Assembly (NCBI RefSeq): GCF_003575965.1
Contig: NZ_QWJJ01000010.1
Span: 124,001 to 188,000, forward strand
DNA length: 64,000 bases
From: Pseudooceanicola sediminis
GTDB taxonomy: Bacteria; Pseudomonadota; Alphaproteobacteria; Rhodobacterales; Rhodobacteraceae
Direction: 5' to 3'
Positions 11,421 to 60,338 of this stretch are shown in pieces (the stretch's first letter is position 1; each line of letters begins with the position of its first letter). The notes under the pieces are model-generated. The model was not told the origin of the DNA. It searched no databases and saw only the letters and a program-made list of their open reading frames with translations. The translations under genes were made by a program, and so were the position numbers.

Positions 11421-11464
11421 GCTGCACCGCTCGGTTACCGTTCGGATACCGTCAAGATACCGAC
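11421..11464 (+). repeat. 44-bp array of four 11-bp ACCG units (copy 1)
   Basis: Four consecutive 11-bp units end in ACCGCT, ACCGTT, ACCGTC and ACCGAC. The third and fourth carry GATACCG. The array is followed by GTCGGAAATACG. It lies between the convergent epimerase and ALDH16 genes, 26 bp beyond the ALDH16 stop. Two equal-length arrays occur at 34591-34634 and 58756-58799. Confidence 0.8.
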
Positions 11465-11489
11465 GTCGGAAATACGTGATTTCAAAGGC

Positions 11490-13829
11490 TTACTCGCCGT
11501 AGGGGATCCACACCGATTTCACCTCGGTCGCCGCGTCCAAAAAGGCACGTCCCTCGCCCTCCGCCGCGAACCAATCACGTGCGCGCCCGTCGTTCACCCA
11601 GGTCCGCTTCAGGTTCGTCGCACTCTCCGCCTCGATGACACCGCTGACATCGGATGACGAAAACGACCAGACGGCATCGACGTCCATATGTGACGCCATG
11701 ACCGGGGCCAGTTCGGCGTGACTGCCCGTCAGGATATTGACCACACCGCCCGGAAGATCAGATGTATCAAGCACTTGGTAAAAGTCAGTCGCGCTCAGCG
11801 GCCCATGTTCGCTGGCCACCAGAACCACCCGGTTGCCCATGGCGATCGCCGGCGCCATCACCGAGATCAACCCCAGCAACGGGGCCTCGTCCGGGCAAAG
11901 CGCACCGATCACGCCCACGGGTTCGCGCATCGCCAGCGCGGTGCCCCGCATGGGAACGGCGCGCACGTCGCCGCCGAACTTGTCCGCCCAGGCAGCATAG
12001 GTGAACAACCGCGACACCGCTGCCGCCACCTCGTCAGCGCCCGTTTTTCCACCATTCAAATCATTGATCCGGCTCGAAAATTCTGCCCCACGCGCCTCAA
12101 GGTTCTCGGCGATGTAGTACAGGATCTGCGCCCGCAGATGCCCCGTGGCCGCCGACCAGCCCCTGGCCCCGCGCGCCGCCTCGACCGCATTGCGCAGATC
12201 CTTGCGATTGGCGATCCCGACCTGCCCCAGAACCTTGCCGCCCTTGCCGAAAACGGGGCGGACATAGCCTCCGTCCGGCCGCGCCTGCTTGCCTCCGACA
12301 TACAGCTTCGCGGTACGATCCAGACCCTCGGTCGCAGCCCCCTCTCCGGAAAACTTGTCGAGCTTTTTCAGAGGCTTCGACTTCAGGATCGGTCGCGTAT
12401 AAGCGCTCAGCCCTTCCCATCCGCCTTCCCGGCCAAAGCCGCTCTCGCGCACTCCGCCAAAGCCGACCGCGGCATCGAACATGTTGGTCCCGTTGATCCA
12501 GACGACCCCCGCCACCAGCTTCGGCGCAACATCCAGTGCCAGGTTGATGTTCTCGCTCCACAGCGTCGCGGCCAGGCCATACCGCGTGTCATTGGCCACA
12601 GCGACCGCCTCCTCCGGCGTCCGAAAGGTCGTCGCAACCAGAACCGGCCCGAAAATCTCTTCCTGCATCAAGGGGTTGGCGCTCTCCAACCCGGTGATCA
12701 GGGTCGGCGGATAATAGCAGCCCGCCGGCATGTCGCAGGCTGGCTGATAGATCTCGCCATCGCTACTCGCAACCATTCCGCGAATACGCTCATGCTGCAC
12801 GGGATCGACAATGGCCCCGACATCGATGCACTTGTCCATCGGATCGCCGACGCGCAATTTATCCATGCGCGCCCGCACCTTGGCATAAAAGGTCTCGGCA
12901 ATTCCTTCCTGCACCAGCAGGCGCGATCCGGCACAGCACACCTGCCCGCCATTGAACCAGATCGCATCGACCAGCCCCTCGACCGCGCTGTCCAGATCCG
13001 CATCCTCGAACACGATATAGGGGCTCTTGCCGCCCAGCTCCAGCGTCAGCGATTTCCCCGAACCCGCTGTCGCGACACGGATTTTCCGACCGACCTCGGT
13101 CGAGCCGGTAAACGCCACCTTGTCCACGCCGGCATGAGACACCACCATTTCGCCCACGGCCCCATCGCCGGTCACGATGTTCACGACACCCTTCGGCACT
13201 CCGGCCTGCACGCAGATCTCGGCAAACAGCAAGGCGGTCAGCGATGTATACTCGGCCGGCTTCAACACCACCGCGTTTCCCATCGCCAGCGCCGGCGCAA
13301 CCTTCCACGCCAGCATCAGCAAGGGAAAGTTCCACGGGATCACCTGACCACAGACCCCAACCGCCTCACGCCCCGGCAGCTCGGCCTGCATCAGCTGCGC
13401 CATCCCGGCATGATAGTAGAAATGCCGATGAACCAGAGGGATATCAATGTCGCGGCTCTCGCGAATGGGCTTGCCGTTGTCCAGCGTCTCCAGCACAGCA
13501 AACAACCGCGCATTCTTCTGGACCAGGCGCGCCAGCGCATACATCACGCGCGCCCGACCATGCCCGCCCAGCTTGGCCCACTTGCCCTGTGCCGCCTGCG
13601 CCGCCGCCACAGCCTCATCCACATCCCCTTGGGACGCTTGCGAAATCTCCGCCAGGGCGTCTCCGCTCGCCGGGTTGCGCGTGGCAAACAGGGCCGCCGG
13701 CTTGGTAAACCGACCGTCGATGAAATGGCCGAAACGCCCGTCGTGCGCTGCGATCCACGCCATCGCCTCGGCCGCCGATTCCGGCGCGGGTCCATAGTCC
13801 ATCGTCTCGAAAATCTCGCTCACACCCAT
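11490..13829 (-). CDS. Two-domain aldehyde dehydrogenase (ALDH16 type)
   Basis: A 779-residue fusion of two aldehyde dehydrogenase domains. The first (about 1-490) is complete: PWNFPLLML, ELGGKSPYIVFEDADLDSA and the nucleophile in GGQVCCAGSR. The second (about 500-779) keeps REPVGVIG and VVLVASEHGPLSA but has no GQxC catalytic segment. This layout is that of the ALDH16 family, in which the C-terminal domain is non-catalytic. It probably oxidises an aldehyde with NAD; the adjacent deoC suggests acetaldehyde. The ATG at 13829 is preceded by GGAG at good distance, and an upstream in-frame start is less likely. Confidence 0.9.
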   Translation of the reverse strand: MGVSEIFETMDYGPAPESAAEAMAWIAAHDGRFGHFIDGRFTKPAALFATRNPASGDALAEISQASQGDVDEAVAAAQAAQGKWAKLGGHGRARVMYALARLVQKNARLFAVLETLDNGKPIRESRDIDIPLVHRHFYYHAGMAQLMQAELPGREAVGVCGQVIPWNFPLLMLAWKVAPALAMGNAVVLKPAEYTSLTALLFAEICVQAGVPKGVVNIVTGDGAVGEMVVSHAGVDKVAFTGSTEVGRKIRVATAGSGKSLTLELGGKSPYIVFEDADLDSAVEGLVDAIWFNGGQVCCAGSRLLVQEGIAETFYAKVRARMDKLRVGDPMDKCIDVGAIVDPVQHERIRGMVASSDGEIYQPACDMPAGCYYPPTLITGLESANPLMQEEIFGPVLVATTFRTPEEAVAVANDTRYGLAATLWSENINLALDVAPKLVAGVVWINGTNMFDAAVGFGGVRESGFGREGGWEGLSAYTRPILKSKPLKKLDKFSGEGAATEGLDRTAKLYVGGKQARPDGGYVRPVFGKGGKVLGQVGIANRKDLRNAVEAARGARGWSAATGHLRAQILYYIAENLEARGAEFSSRINDLNGGKTGADEVAAAVSRLFTYAAWADKFGGDVRAVPMRGTALAMREPVGVIGALCPDEAPLLGLISVMAPAIAMGNRVVLVASEHGPLSATDFYQVLDTSDLPGGVVNILTGSHAELAPVMASHMDVDAVWSFSSSDVSGVIEAESATNLKRTWVNDGRARDWFAAEGEGRAFLDAATEVKSVWIPYGE

Positions 13830-14882: not shown

Positions 14883-14950
14883 GAATCCTCCATCCGTCGT
14901 CCGGCCGCGTATCAGGGCACAACCGTCGCGTCGCCCCGAAAGACCCTTGG

Positions 14951-14992
14951 TTCACTGGCCTTTGTTCACTGGCCTTTGTTCACTGGGCCTCG
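14951..14992. repeat. Three tandem 14-bp units
   Basis: The unit TTCACTGGCCTTTG occurs at 14951-14964 and 14965-14978, with a diverged third copy at 14979-14992. It lies in the 181-bp gap upstream of deoC, about 70-110 bp before its start codon, where promoter elements would be expected. Confidence 0.75.
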
Positions 14993-32848: not shown

Positions 32849-34408
32849 ATGGCCAAGCTTTTCCAGCCCCGGCTGACCCGCCGCAGCATGTTGATCGGCA
32901 CCGCCGCTGCCACCGCAACCCTTGCCATGCCGTCGATCTCCCGCGCGGCATCGCGTCCGATGTTCACCCATGGTGTGCAGTCGGGCGATGTCACGACCTC
33001 CTCCGGCATGATCTGGACGCGCACGGATCGCCCCGCCAAGGTGATGATGGAGGTCGCGACATCAGAAAGCTTTAACGATGCGCGCCGCCTCGCCCCGCTC
33101 GACACCAACCCCGCCAGCGATCTGACCGTCAAGCGCATGGTCCAGGGGCTGCCGGCCGATCAGGACATCTTCTACCGTTTCACCGCTGCTGACCTGAGCG
33201 ACGTGAATGCCGTGTCCGAGCCGATTGTCGGGCACTTCCGCACCGCGCCCGCGTCGCGCCGGTCGGTGCGTTTCGCCTGGTCTGGCGATACCGCTGGTCA
33301 GGGCTATGGCATCGACGAAGCCGGGATGCGCACCTACGCCACGATGGCCCAGCATGAGCCGGATTTCTTTCTGCATTCGGGCGACACCATCTATGCCGAT
33401 GGCGCGCTGTCAGACGAAATCACCGCAGGCGACGGCACCCAGTGGAAGAACCTGATCGTCACACCTGAAAAGTCCAAGGTCGCGGAAACACTGGATGAAT
33501 ATCGCGGCCAGTGGAAATACAACCTGATGGACGAACACCTGTTGGCGCTGAACGCGCAGGTGCCGACGTTCTTTCAGTGGGATGACCACGAGGTGATCAA
33601 CAACTGGTCCGCCTCCAAGGATCTGACCGCCGATGACCGCTATTCGGAAAAGTCGATCCATGTGCTGGCGGCGCGGGCGGCGCGGGCGTTTCACGAGATG
33701 ACCCCGATCAGCTATACCCCGTCTGAGCCGGGCCGGGTCTATCGCAAGATCGCCTATGGTCCGATGCTGGACATCTTCTTCCTGGACATGCGGTCCTATC
33801 GCGGGGCGAACGGGGCGAATTTGGAGAGCGAAATCAACGAGACCTCGACCTATCTGGGCCGCGACCAGATCGAGTGGTTGCAGGCCGAGCTGGCCGCGTC
33901 GAAAGCGACGTGGAAGGTTATCGCCTCGGATATGCCGCTGGGTCTGGTGGTGCGCGACGGCGAAAAGTTCGAGGCGGTGGCCAACGCCGATGGCGGGGCA
34001 CCGAAGGGACGCGAGCTGGAAATCGCGGACCTGCTGCGCTTTATCCGCGATGCGCAGGTCAGGAACACCGTCTGGCTGACCGCTGATGTGCATTATACCG
34101 CCGCCCACCACTACTCTCCGGAAAAGGCGCAATTTCAAGAGTTTGAGCCGTTCTGGGAGTTCGTCTCGGGCCCGTTGCACGCCGGGGCGTTCGGCCCGAA
34201 CGACCTGGACCCGACCTTTGGCCCCGAGGAACGCTTTGTCAAAGCGCCCGCACCGGGCGAGGTCAACCTGCCGCCCTCGGACGGGATGCAGTTCTTTGGT
34301 CTGGTCGATATCGACGGGGCGACCCAGCAGATGAAGGTGCGCCTGATGGATCGCGGCAATACCGAGCTTTGGTCGATCACGCTGGAACCCAAGGGCGCGA
34401 CGATCTGA
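32849..34408 (+). CDS. phoD: Alkaline phosphatase D family protein (Tat-exported)
   Basis: A 519-residue PhoD-type metallophosphoesterase. The N-terminus LTRRSMLIGTAAATATLAMP is a twin-arginine signal. The short N-terminal PhoD domain (about 40-130, FTHGVQSGDVTTSSGMIW) is followed by the metal-binding core: SGDTAGQG, FFLHSGDTIYADG, FQWDDHEVINNW and LTADVHYTAAHHY. It releases phosphate from organic phosphoesters in the periplasm, probably with Ca and Fe. Repeats resembling Pho boxes lie upstream. Confidence 0.92.
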   Translation: MAKLFQPRLTRRSMLIGTAAATATLAMPSISRAASRPMFTHGVQSGDVTTSSGMIWTRTDRPAKVMMEVATSESFNDARRLAPLDTNPASDLTVKRMVQGLPADQDIFYRFTAADLSDVNAVSEPIVGHFRTAPASRRSVRFAWSGDTAGQGYGIDEAGMRTYATMAQHEPDFFLHSGDTIYADGALSDEITAGDGTQWKNLIVTPEKSKVAETLDEYRGQWKYNLMDEHLLALNAQVPTFFQWDDHEVINNWSASKDLTADDRYSEKSIHVLAARAARAFHEMTPISYTPSEPGRVYRKIAYGPMLDIFFLDMRSYRGANGANLESEINETSTYLGRDQIEWLQAELAASKATWKVIASDMPLGLVVRDGEKFEAVANADGGAPKGRELEIADLLRFIRDAQVRNTVWLTADVHYTAAHHYSPEKAQFQEFEPFWEFVSGPLHAGAFGPNDLDPTFGPEERFVKAPAPGEVNLPPSDGMQFFGLVDIDGATQQMKVRLMDRGNTELWSITLEPKGATI

Positions 34409-34590
34409 GGCGAGTGCCTTGCGCAGGGAGGGGGCAGGGGCCGGTCGGTCGCTGCCCCTTTTCCCGTAATCAGGGGGTGGTCCGGGCCACCCGGACCGGG
34501 CCAGGAACAGCGCAGGACCGGGCCAGGAACGGCCCCGCCCGAGATGCCCGGCGAAGGTGCCCGGAGCCTGCAAAACCTTCGATTTCGCAC

Positions 34591-34634
34591 GTCGGTATCC
34601 TGTCGGTATCTTGACGGGACCCTGACGGTTTTCC
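34591..34634 (-). repeat. 44-bp array of four 11-bp ACCG units (copy 2)
   Basis: Read on the minus strand, four 11-bp units end in ACCGTC, CCCGTC, ACCGAC and ACCGAC. Two contain GATACCG, and the array is followed by GTGCGAAATCG. It lies between the convergent phoD and the 34684 gene. Same length and unit number as copies 1 and 3. Confidence 0.8.
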
Positions 34635-34683: not shown

Positions 34684-35217
34684 TCAGCGCAGTTCGGGTG
34701 CATATCGGCCCTCGGCGCGCAGAGCGCGCAGCACGATGCCGACCCCCCGACCCAGGAACACACCGCTGCACAGGCCGACCAGCAGCGACAGTGCGCCGCC
34801 GACCTGAAGCAGGTCGAGCACGGTCGGTGCCACGGCGGCAAGCACCGAAAACGCGAAATGGCTTACGAAGATCGTCAGGCTGAGGCAGAGCGACAGCCAT
34901 TGGCCCCCCAGACGCAGGCGCCGGTCGGGCAGCACCTGCATCGCCAACCTGTTGGCCAGCCACAGACCCGCCAATGCACCGCAGCCCAGCCCAATGACCC
35001 AGAGCAGCGCAAAGACCCCGTCGCCCAGCATGGACCCGGAGGTGAGGCTGATCGCGAGGAATATCAGCGGCACGATCAACGGCTGAAACAGGCGCACGGT
35101 CCGGTCTCGGGTCGCGCGCAATCCCATGAAGATCACGAAGGCCAGCAGCGGCCAGACCCAGAGCGGCGTGTGTTGCACGATGGCGATCGGAAGCGAGAGA
35201 AGAGACGGCGTGGGCAT
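34684..35217 (-). CDS. Multi-pass membrane protein, DUF6622-like
   Basis: A 177-residue protein with about five transmembrane segments. The N-terminal stretch IVQHTPLWVWPLLAFVIFMG, followed by LRATRDRTV, resembles the DUF6622 group of unknown-function membrane proteins, as remembered. No catalytic motif is seen. The ATG at 35217 has a GGAG upstream; a start at 35244 is less likely. It is divergent from the LytTR-domain membrane regulator 139 bp away, a pairing that suggests the regulator controls it. Confidence 0.65.
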   Translation of the reverse strand: MPTPSLLSLPIAIVQHTPLWVWPLLAFVIFMGLRATRDRTVRLFQPLIVPLIFLAISLTSGSMLGDGVFALLWVIGLGCGALAGLWLANRLAMQVLPDRRLRLGGQWLSLCLSLTIFVSHFAFSVLAAVAPTVLDLLQVGGALSLLVGLCSGVFLGRGVGIVLRALRAEGRYAPELR

Positions 35218-36288: not shown

Positions 36289-36338
36289 TCTCCGGGGGGG
36301 GGAAACAAGCGGGGGCAGCGCGGTGGGGGCCACAGTGA

Positions 36339-36377
36339 CAGGGGCCAGTGTCAGGGGCCAGTGTCAGGGGCCAGTGG
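36339..36377. repeat. Three tandem 13-bp units
   Basis: CAGGGGCCAGTGT occurs at 36339-36351 and 36352-36364, and with one change at 36365-36377. It lies 12 bp beyond the stop of the aminotransferase gene. Confidence 0.85.
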
Positions 36378-58755: not shown

Positions 58756-58799
58756 CATTCACCGCCGATGAACCGCCCGGATACCGCCCAGATACCGAC
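58756..58799 (+). repeat. 44-bp array of four 11-bp ACCG units (copy 3)
   Basis: Four 11-bp units end in ACCGCC, ACCGCC, ACCGCC and ACCGAC. The last two carry GATACCG, and the array is followed by GTTGAAAAACTG. It lies in the 166-bp gap between the gltD stop and the GFA start, 54 bp upstream of the latter. Confidence 0.8.
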
Positions 58800-58868
58800 G
58801 TTGAAAAACTGCCTTTTCAGCGCGTTAGCAATTTCGTCGGTCCGTCGTGTCGGTGTGCCATCGCCGCC

Positions 58869-60338
58869 CTATTCGGCGGCGATGGCATCCGCTGTTTCCA
58901 GGTCTTCCAGGATCGCCGCCGCGCAATCGCGCCCGTCGCGGATCGCCCAGACAACCAGGCTCGCGCCGCGCACGATGTCGCCCACGGCATAGACGCGATC
59001 CAGGCTGGTGCGGCCCGATCCGAATTCGGCCCGCACGGTGCCCCAGCGGGTCACGTCCAACCCGTCGGTGTTCCACAGCTTGGGCAGGTCCTCGGGTTCA
59101 AAGCCAAGCGCCTTGATCACCAGGTCCGCGTGCTCGGTATAGTCGCTGCCGTCGATCACTTCGGGGCTCTGACGGCCACTGGTATCGGGCGCACCAAGGC
59201 GCATCCGCTGCACCATCGCGCCCTTGACGATCCCCGCCGCAGCGCCCGCGCCCTCGGGTTCAATGACCCCGGTGGTAAAGCCGACAGGCGCGGAAAGCCA
59301 AACGAACTCAACACCTTCTTCTTCGGCATTGGCCACTTCGCGCTGCGACCCCGGCATGTTGGCACGGTCACGGCGGTACAGGCATTTGACGCTCTCGGCA
59401 CCCTGACGGATGGCGGTGCGCACACAGTCCATCGCGGTATCGCCGCCGCCGATCACGACGACCTTCTTGCCCGCCGCGTTCAGCTCACCGCTGGTGAATT
59501 CCTCGACATCGTCGCCAAAGCTGACCTTGTTCGATGCGGTCAGGTAATCGATCGCGCGCACGATGCCCTCGGCCCCGGCATTTTCGCCCGACAGTTCGCG
59601 CGTCTTGTAGACGCCGGTGGCGATCAACACGGCGTCATGCTTGCCGCGAATGGCGTCAAAGCTCAGGTCTTCGCCGACATTGCAGTTCAGGACAAACTCG
59701 ACTCCGCCCTGCTCCAGCTGCTCGATCCGGCGCATGACGATGTCCTTCTCCAGCTTGAAGCTGGGGATGCCATAGGTCATCAGCCCGCCGGCGCGGTCGT
59801 AGCGGTCATAGACCGTGACCTGAACACCGGCCTGGCGCAGCATGTCCGCAGCGGCCAGCCCGCCGGGGCCTGCGCCAATGATTCCAACGCTTTCCTCGCG
59901 CTCGACATCCGGCATGACCGGCTTGACCCAGCCCTTTTCCCAGGCGGTATCGGTGATGTATTTCTCGACCGCCCCGATGGTCACGGTACCGTGGCCGGAC
60001 TGTTCGATGACGCAATTGCCCTCACAAAGGCGATCCTGCGGACAAATGCGGCCGCAGATCTCGGGGAAGGTATTCGTCGCCTGGCTGATGGCATAGGCTT
60101 CTTCCAGACGGTTCGTGGCCGTCAGGCGCAACCAGTCGGGGATATTGTTGTGCAACGGGCAGTGACTTTGGCAATACGGAACACCGCACTGGCTGCACCG
60201 GCTGGCTTGCTCTTCGGCTTTCGCGGCGGCAAACTCGGAATAGATCTCATCGAAATCGTGTGCGCGAACACTCGCGTCACGTTTCTCGGGCATATCCCGG
60301 TCAACGGTCACGAATTTCAGCATCGGTTGCTTCGCCAC
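58869..60338 (-). CDS. gltD: Glutamate synthase small subunit
   Basis: A 489-residue flavoprotein that passes electrons from NADPH to GltB. The N-terminal Fe-S motifs are CSQCGVPYCQSHCPLHNNIP and CGRICPQDRLCEGNC. The FAD site is VGIIGAGPGGLAAADML near residue 150 and the NADPH site is VVVIGGGDTAMDCVRTA near residue 290. The GTG at 60338 has AGGAG seven bases upstream. It is transcribed ahead of the GFA gene and gltB and is divergent from uppP. Confidence 0.97.
   Translation of the reverse strand: MAKQPMLKFVTVDRDMPEKRDASVRAHDFDEIYSEFAAAKAEEQASRCSQCGVPYCQSHCPLHNNIPDWLRLTATNRLEEAYAISQATNTFPEICGRICPQDRLCEGNCVIEQSGHGTVTIGAVEKYITDTAWEKGWVKPVMPDVEREESVGIIGAGPGGLAAADMLRQAGVQVTVYDRYDRAGGLMTYGIPSFKLEKDIVMRRIEQLEQGGVEFVLNCNVGEDLSFDAIRGKHDAVLIATGVYKTRELSGENAGAEGIVRAIDYLTASNKVSFGDDVEEFTSGELNAAGKKVVVIGGGDTAMDCVRTAIRQGAESVKCLYRRDRANMPGSQREVANAEEEGVEFVWLSAPVGFTTGVIEPEGAGAAAGIVKGAMVQRMRLGAPDTSGRQSPEVIDGSDYTEHADLVIKALGFEPEDLPKLWNTDGLDVTRWGTVRAEFGSGRTSLDRVYAVGDIVRGASLVVWAIRDGRDCAAAILEDLETADAIAAE

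Follow-up and report, generated by a model that had tools for sequence, protein, structure and literature searches.

The window, by which we mean the whole 64-kb stretch of DNA analysed, contains three short intergenic arrays, each built of four 11-bp direct repeats with ACCG, once CCCG, at the same place in every unit (Table 1). This is as the earlier note had described, and no fourth array is present in the window: a search requiring at least 15 of the 16 core bases found these three only (0 in 60 first-order Markov simulations), and the longer pattern GATACCG-N4-GATACCGACGTNNGAAA, with up to three mismatches, matched exactly the same three (0 in 100 dinucleotide shuffles). The core pattern alone, with up to three mismatches, gave eight overlapping or weak matches versus 1.4 expected. 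The related flank reported to follow all three arrays was likewise confirmed, and it is conserved genome-wide as ACGTtcgAATT (83 copies). As to the neighbours, the aldehyde dehydrogenase, PhoD and GltD-like genes are present as stated, but the gene end closest to array 2 is not that of the PhoD gene, which lies about 180 bp from the array; it belongs to a gene for a protein with a sub-threshold DUF6622 match.

Table 1. Arrays, array flanks and neighbouring genes, in positions of the window
Feature	Position	Strand	Basis
Array 1, four 11-bp units with the ACCG core at the same position in each: GCTGCACCGCT CGGTTACCGTT CGGATACCGTC AAGATACCGAC	11421-11464	+	exact genome match C2:135426
3-prime flank of array 1, GTCGGAAATACGTGATTTCAAAGGCTTA, up to the stop codon of the opposing aldehyde dehydrogenase gene	11465-11495	+	83-copy consensus, gene end
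Array 2, four units, core 2 being CCCG (read 34634-34591): GGAAAACCGTC AGGGTCCCGTC AAGATACCGAC AGGATACCGAC	34591-34634	-	window pattern searches
3-prime flank of array 2, GTGCGAAATC...	34563-34590	-	83-copy consensus
Array 3, four units: CATTCACCGCC GATGAACCGCC CGGATACCGCC CAGATACCGAC	58756-58799	+	exact genome match C2:182761
3-prime flank of array 3, GTTGAAAAACTG...	58800-58827	+	83-copy consensus
Aldehyde dehydrogenase gene, neighbour of array 1	11490-13829	-	
PhoD gene, neighbour of array 2	32849-34408	+	
Gene for protein with sub-threshold DUF6622 match, nearer gene end to array 2	34684-35217	-	
GltD-like protein gene, neighbour of array 3	58869-60323	-	

At the gathering threshold Rfam has three matches in the window, none of them at an array: a serC leader (RF00517, 7162-7213, minus strand), a TPP riboswitch (RF00059, 19044-19144, minus strand) and a tRNA gene (RF00005, 62630-62712, plus strand). 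Other repeats in the window are a 14-bp tandem repeat of CCTTTGTTCACTGG (three copies, 96% matching, 14945-14986), a 13-bp tandem repeat of CAGTGTCAGGGGC (3.4 copies, 96% matching, 36333-36376) and a degenerate repeat of GTTCCTGGCCCGGTCC with a period of 11 (or 22) bp, which lies at 34493-34532, some 60 bp away from array 2.

Copy number, anatomy and gene context

The pattern (ACCG N7)x3 ACCG has 101 exact matches (60 + 41) in the P. sediminis genome and none for the reversed control; with up to two mismatches, and overlapping registers counted, there are 132 + 90 matches against 19 + 11 controls. The three arrays of the window are thus three of about 100 in this genome. Four units are the modal number in all four sets of loci considered, both in those retrieved by a four-unit pattern (74 of 79 and 34 of 36) and in those retrieved by a three-unit pattern (24 of 29 and 77 of 117). 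The exact search matched six of 40 relatives, namely G016 (P. spongiae; 53 + 51, 104 in all), G015 (41 + 47, 88 in all), G017 (8 + 8), G001 (3 + 3), G019 (1 + 1) and G005, whose one GC-rich match is probably due to chance; the reversed control gave one match each in G014 and G017.

Among 295 genus representatives, three ATACCG units with up to one mismatch were matched in 22, of which 11 had at least five places, and four ATAC units were matched in 38. Nine further genomes had at least five four-ATAC places, with counts of the CATAC type (the units of G087 are not among the matches listed); together with the 11 ATACCG genomes these indicate that about 20 genera carry arrays of one type or the other, while single matches may be chance. 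The reversed-pattern control is valid for ACCG and ATACCG, and where it gave matches elsewhere, nine such genomes were searched again, and in five of them the matches proved to be differently spelled arrays. The reversal of CATAC is a nearly identical pattern, and the CATAC counts were therefore compared with the 257 of 295 genomes that gave no match. Among the matches listed, the ATACCGACG spelling occurs in Roseovarius, Salinihabitans, Shimia, Sulfitobacter, Silicimonas, Boseongicola, Pseudooceanicola and others. The family thus amounts to tens to about a hundred arrays per genome in the Roseobacter group, and none of the open-access papers listed in our searches describes such arrays. At one locus (L285, G146:C36, from 709), the only place among the matches listed for that genome, there is a perfect 11-bp tandem array of at least five units of ATACCTGTGCG. 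Searches of plasmids and phages with a ATACCGACG-type query gave three weak plasmid matches, outside the Rhodobacteraceae, and one phage match, and a CATACGCC-type query gave seven weak plasmid matches, none in Rhodobacteraceae; none of these was convincing, in a collection that has many Rhodobacteraceae plasmids, of which some may come from array-bearing species.

The 83 distinct P. sediminis copies with a terminal ACCGACG and 150 bp of sequence to either side gave the consensus gcACCGTTcagATACCGctc.GATACCGTCcAGATACCGACGTtg.AATt, with another conserved piece about 20 bp further on; conservation among the units is highest in the last. Of these copies, 51 belong to class A2, 13 to class B, which has GTTAACC, and 19 to neither. 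GTTAACC lies near 19 of the 83 arrays, compared with about 0.13 sites per 140 bp of intergenic background in G016. In several genera, with differing array units, this heptamer stands about 25-30 bp to either side of one class of array, often as TTGTTAACCAAGG followed by GATTCG; copies flanked in this way include class B in P. sediminis (e.g., L026, L203, L224) and many Roseovarius loci. Inverted repeats are not in excess, perfect stems of at least 7 bp being found in 2 of the 83 copies versus 6% of shuffles.

The period is strict. ATACCG pairs in the P. sediminis genome occur 120 times at 11 bp (ATACCG-N5-ATACCG) and not once at 10 or 12 bp (N4 or N6), which gives good support to the earlier proposal that the cores are held in helical phase. 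The corresponding ratios are 59:0 in G016, 42:0 in G306 and 261:0 at named loci, CATAC pairs number 69 at 11 bp and one at 12 bp, and a looser second unit in P. sediminis gives 133 pairs at 11 bp, one at 10 and five at 12, although most of the loci behind these spacings were retrieved with 11-bp patterns, which biases them towards 11. No strict 10- or 12-bp pair was added by sequence sampled evenly from G016 (400 kb) and G306 (300 kb).

With genes called by a simple codon-model gene finder made for this analysis, 82 of the 83 copies lie outside predicted genes and one lies inside; arrays within predicted genes number 1 of 30 in G016 and 2 of 17 in G306. The junctions occupied in P. sediminis are 25 convergent, 7 divergent and 26 + 22 co-directional, with one neighbour missing for two, as against 32 convergent, 50 divergent and 66 + 41 co-directional among 189 background junctions of at least 60 bp in 400 kb of G016. 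Set against this background, the arrays tend to follow gene ends and to avoid promoters. The neighbouring genes have no evident common function; some arrays lie between co-directional genes, for example upstream of lpd at four loci. In 52 copies the upstream gene is directed into the array and in 29 away from it. This preference for the transcript strand comes mainly from class B and the unclassed copies (26 versus 5), and class A2 has none (upstream gene '+' in 26, '-' in 24).

Shared sites and lineage spellings

Comparison of the first 30 arrays along the G016 chromosome with 89 arrays of P. sediminis showed that 14 have a counterpart at the orthologous junction, all on the same side and in the same orientation, 13 of these junctions being matched by both neighbours and one by a single neighbour. 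Around these arrays the flanks are 42-48% identical and the spacers 57%; the 100% identity of the cores is built into the search pattern. Upstream of arfB, an array is found in 6 of 23 genus members (G000, G016, G001, G010 with three units, G015 and G017). G006, without any four-unit match, has an apparently decayed array there. The presence in 6 of 23 could also reflect gain.

Arrays also persist beside the same genes across genera, in different spellings of the 11-mer, which include ATACCGACGTG, CATACGCCAGC, CATAACTCTTT and GGTGCACGCCC. A flanking or host gene is shared with an array elsewhere in 5 of 12 cases in G183, 5 of 26 in G306 and 21 of 119 named loci; in two of the five G183 cases the array has the opposite orientation relative to the gene. 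At arfB-yhhQ, P. sediminis and G183 share both genes and have two spellings, with G306 sharing the gene on the yhhQ side, and rpoA-rplQ and valS each have two spellings at a shared site.

The array in valS keeps the reading frame and is translated within a loop between TKLWNA and NKWI, with ATACCGACGTG units at L141 and CATACGCCAGC units in G183; the protein sequence of the loop thus follows the spelling of the lineage's array. Thirty further valS loci were inspected, of which 25 were readable and four have clear period-11 arrays of other spellings (GGTGCACGCCC in G056, TGTGCATnnnA in G070, CATATGGAATT in G057 and CATAACTCTTT in G023); G048 is borderline, and the valS of P. sediminis has no array. 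The valS loci with arrays are L141, L257, L324, L330, L334 and L345, in each of which a variable loop of an essential tRNA synthetase carries the repeats.

If valS shows the spelling used by its genome, the unit seen there should recur elsewhere in that genome, and this prediction was tested by de novo detection of period-11 repeats. In 400 kb of G023, all three strong period-11 repeats have the unit predicted from valS, and no strong repeats were found there at periods 10 or 12-16. Three repeats in 100 kb of G056 were valS itself, a repeat of the predicted unit at a distance of 60 kb and an unrelated repeat. G057 has 10 + 8 matches to CATA every 11 bp, found in the reversed control of the four-ATAC search. 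Strong period-11 repeats in 400 kb number 0 in the array-less G012 and 9, not itemised, in G016.

Spacing along the chromosome and orientation at dif

Arrays occur at about one per 35-80 kb, and their spacing is more even than chance in four of five genomes. Relative to uniform placement, the coefficient of variation of the gaps, pooled over contigs with at least four arrays, is 0.71 versus 0.92 in P. sediminis (P 0.0033, 76 arrays), 0.50 versus 0.92 in G183 (0 of 3000 simulations, P <0.0004, 37 arrays), 0.75 versus 0.99 in G016 (P 0.0017; 99 arrays, from 100 of the 104 matches with one overlapping register merged) and 0.61 versus 0.96 in G015 (P 0.0003, 52 arrays). Spacing in G306 is not more even than chance (0.91 versus 0.98, P 0.35, 40 arrays). 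On the 4.37-Mb (4,365,781-bp) chromosome of G016 the arrays lie all round and are not confined to the terminus, towards which their density does not rise: among the matches listed, which do not include four of the matches, there are 34 arrays in 0-1.6 Mb, the part that contains dif (21 per Mb), and 65 in the other 2.77 Mb (23 per Mb).

The orientation of the arrays changes at the terminus. We assigned dif by pattern, with up to two mismatches, and where there were several candidates (G000: C1, C14 twice, C19; G183: C5, C8; G105: C21, C28, C40) chose those with the core ATAATCNGTATTATGT, which they have in common with the other genomes; no convincing dif was found in G015. Within about 600 kb of dif, 53 of 61 arrays in seven genomes point away from it (P 3e-9), and 32 of 37 do so when the discovery genome is left out (P 7e-6). 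The counts are 21/24 in G016, 12/15 in G306, 10/10 in G183, 3/3 in G279, 5/6 in P. sediminis, 1/2 in G143 and 1/1 in G105, those for G279 and G105 being taken among the matches listed. Outside this total, and also among the matches listed, G254 has one array pointing towards dif, G298 has one pointing away and one doubtful match pointing towards it, and G017 and G319 have no array on the dif contig. Contig C14 of P. sediminis, if its dif candidate were taken, would not show the flip.

In G016 the arrays closest to the dif-like site (938,294) are at 918,213 '-' and 995,425 '+', and in G306 (dif at 990,999) twelve consecutive arrays are '+' after one at 1,012,492 (-). In both genomes the GC skew agrees with dif on the location of the terminus, flipping between 0.96 and 1.03 Mb in G016, where it is noisy on the far side, and between 0.95 and 1.04 Mb in G306. 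G183, which uses a different unit, has two '-' arrays before dif (C5:405,799) and eight '+' after; contig C1 of G279 reads '-', '-', dif (129,015), '+' among the matches listed, and contig C1 of P. sediminis reads 38,110 '-', 87,355 '-', dif (108,255), then '+', '+', '+', '-'. On both arms the ATAC/ACCG strand runs away from dif and the CGGTAT strand towards it. This polarity is limited to the terminus side and fades with distance. In G016, 21 of 24 arrays point away up to 600 kb from dif, 9 of 14 do so between 600 and 900 kb, and 31 of 61 farther out; in G306 the figures are 19 of 23 up to 900 kb and 8 of 17 farther out.

An artefact of gene direction was tested as the source of the polarity and rejected. 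Of the first 30 arrays of G016, 25 run against the fork, in ratios against to with of 3:1 between co-directional leading-strand genes, 8:1 between lagging-strand genes, 9:2 at convergent and 4:0 at divergent junctions; in G306, 14 of 17 run against the fork (leading 5:1, lagging 4:0). An unbiased, replication-oriented scan of octamers over 700 kb of G016 and G306 gave as the top polar octamer GGGCAGGG (85:14), which is the classical KOPS. Since it was recovered separately, FtsK already has a sequence of its own besides the arrays, and the arrays as an FtsK-orienting sequence were rejected as the main reading.

Known systems, rival explanations and a possible function

Several known systems share single features with the arrays. 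Operators made of 11-bp direct repeats, as for PhoB/OmpR, CtrA (TTAA-N7-TTAA) and alphaproteobacterial LexA (GTTC-N7-GTTC), have the same head-to-tail arrangement and step; they are few and lie in promoters, unlike the arrays, and we know of no polarity at dif or respelling of the whole set for them. REP and BIME elements are intergenic, follow gene ends and have many copies, as the arrays do, but REPs are palindromic, whereas the arrays are direct repeats, are kept at orthologous junctions and are oriented. The DNA uptake sequence dialects of Neisseriaceae are also lineage-specific spellings of one genome-wide signal; they are single 10-12-mers present a thousand times or more, serve DNA uptake, and to our knowledge have neither even spacing nor terminus polarity. 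The matS site of Enterobacteriaceae and Vibrionaceae is a 13-mer confined to the terminus region, with a spacing of about 35 kb.

MatP is restricted to Enterobacteriaceae and Vibrionaceae, and ZapT of Caulobacter gave 10 ChIP positions, most of them close to ter and in ORFs, that lack a consensus (PMC7188993). Both systems resemble the arrays in being chromosomal sites that link the terminus to division and segregation, matS with a spacing of similar order, and differ in that the arrays are spread over the entire chromosome and share a well-defined consensus. KOPS, the FtsK-orienting polar sequences (PMC2680272), are asymmetric, oriented towards the terminus and flip at dif, as the arrays near dif do; they are 8-mers, however, and the array unit has no GGGNAGGG-like 8-mer, the arrays being 44-bp elements of about 100 copies or fewer, evenly spaced in four of five genomes and spelled by lineage. 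AIMS are polar octamers that become more abundant towards the terminus, with strand bias strongest near it and most without an assigned function (PMC5993296). The rise of strand bias is shared by the arrays of G016 and the rise of abundance is not, and the arrays are phased multi-unit cassettes at conserved junctions instead of octamers. The available text of a paper on dif in Dinoroseobacter mentions KOPS and dif and no such arrays (PMC7901474).

Several explanations have to be weighed against these data. That the arrays are a short mobile or REP-like repeat, spreading and tolerated between genes, mostly after gene ends, is unlikely, even though about 100 interspersed copies, the preference for convergent junctions, the patchy presence among species (6 of 23 at the arfB site) and the occurrence in a single genome of the longer flank families A2 and B all favour it. 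Against it stand the lack of an inverted-repeat excess, the orthologous copies in the same orientation (14 of 30), some of them across genera, the differing spelling of units at shared sites, even in frame in valS, and the over-even spacing with polarity at dif. A second set of sequences telling FtsK, or an FtsK/SpoIIIE-like pump, where dif lies, in the manner of KOPS, would account for a CGGTAT strand that runs towards dif on both arms, flips there and loses its polarity with distance. We regard it as distinctly unlikely given that FtsK has its own KOPS (85 versus 14) in two array-bearing genomes, that one array per 35-80 kb is sparse, and that unpolarised arrays fill the remaining chromosome.

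The tetranucleotide-N7-tetranucleotide layout and 11-bp phase are typical of PhoB/OmpR-, LexA- and CtrA-like regulators, and a minority of copies do lie between co-directional genes, as before lpd; nevertheless, avoidance of promoter junctions (7 divergent versus 25 convergent), the many unrelated neighbouring genes, the arrays inside valS and a dif polarity unrelated to gene direction make operators of such a transcription regulator quite improbable. An RNA-level element, either a Rho-loading site or a binding site in 3-prime UTRs with CC every 11 nt, would suit arrays that frequently follow gene ends, have C in every unit at an 11-nt step and are more often read into by the upstream gene. 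It is very improbable, as the main class A2 lacks this preference, the CATAC, CATAACTCTTT and GGTGCACGCCC units keep no single C-rich core and Rfam has no match at the window arrays, while the polarity at dif suggests that the arrays act as DNA. Polar replication-fork barriers of the Tus-Ter kind, for which the consistent orientation on both sides of dif speaks, are scarcely credible: the arrays are not all permissive for normal forks, orientation being mixed more than 900 kb from dif in G016 and G306, where about half would face normal forks in the blocking orientation.

The even spacing, the flip at the terminus and the lineage spellings together make the arrays look like binding sites of a chromosome-organising protein. 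We suggest that they are probably chromosomal landmarks, read by a putative protein that binds DNA head to tail and organises or orients the chromosome. Of the three readings offered in the earlier note, this is the nucleoid-protein site, widened to a nucleoid or chromosome-organising site, which fits best; a gene-regulatory operator is disfavoured because divergent, promoter-bearing junctions are avoided and the neighbours have no evident common function, and a freely mobile repeat because junctions and orientation are conserved between orthologues.

The 44-bp cassette, usually of four 11-bp direct repeats, would span four turns of the helix, so that identical base contacts would recur on one helix face. 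Direct repeats on one face suggest head-to-tail subunits, a known mode of binding for OmpR-type and other proteins, and the putative protein that binds the arrays would probably be an oligomer of such subunits. Being asymmetric, an array has a direction, and this is kept within about 600-900 kb of dif, with the ATAC/ACCG strand outward on both arms. In the simplest case the arrays would serve to organise or segregate the chromosome, their direction being read near the terminus and mattering on that side alone. The preferred spelling has drifted between lineages, and the sites, at unchanged gene junctions, have followed it, perhaps in co-evolution with a protein; where the system is lost, arrays may vanish or decay, as one junction suggests. 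More tentatively, and at somewhat less than even chances, the landmarks may form a chromosome-addressing system of a new kind, made of even, phased and directional arrays, a putative fast-evolving reader and lineage dialects. Such a reader would tell condensin, a translocase or the replisome where the terminus lies, and as its DNA code shifted between lineages the whole set of sites would be respelled in place.

If this is true, it would be a chromosome-wide organising system distinct from the MatP, KOPS and parS sets known so far, recognised from sequence alone in a large group of ecological importance. For the organisation of the terminus in alphaproteobacteria, ZapT is one answer. The lineage dialects would offer a natural experiment on how a set of binding sites changes in step with a presumed DNA-binding protein, and the arrays themselves can serve as bait to isolate the putative protein that binds them.
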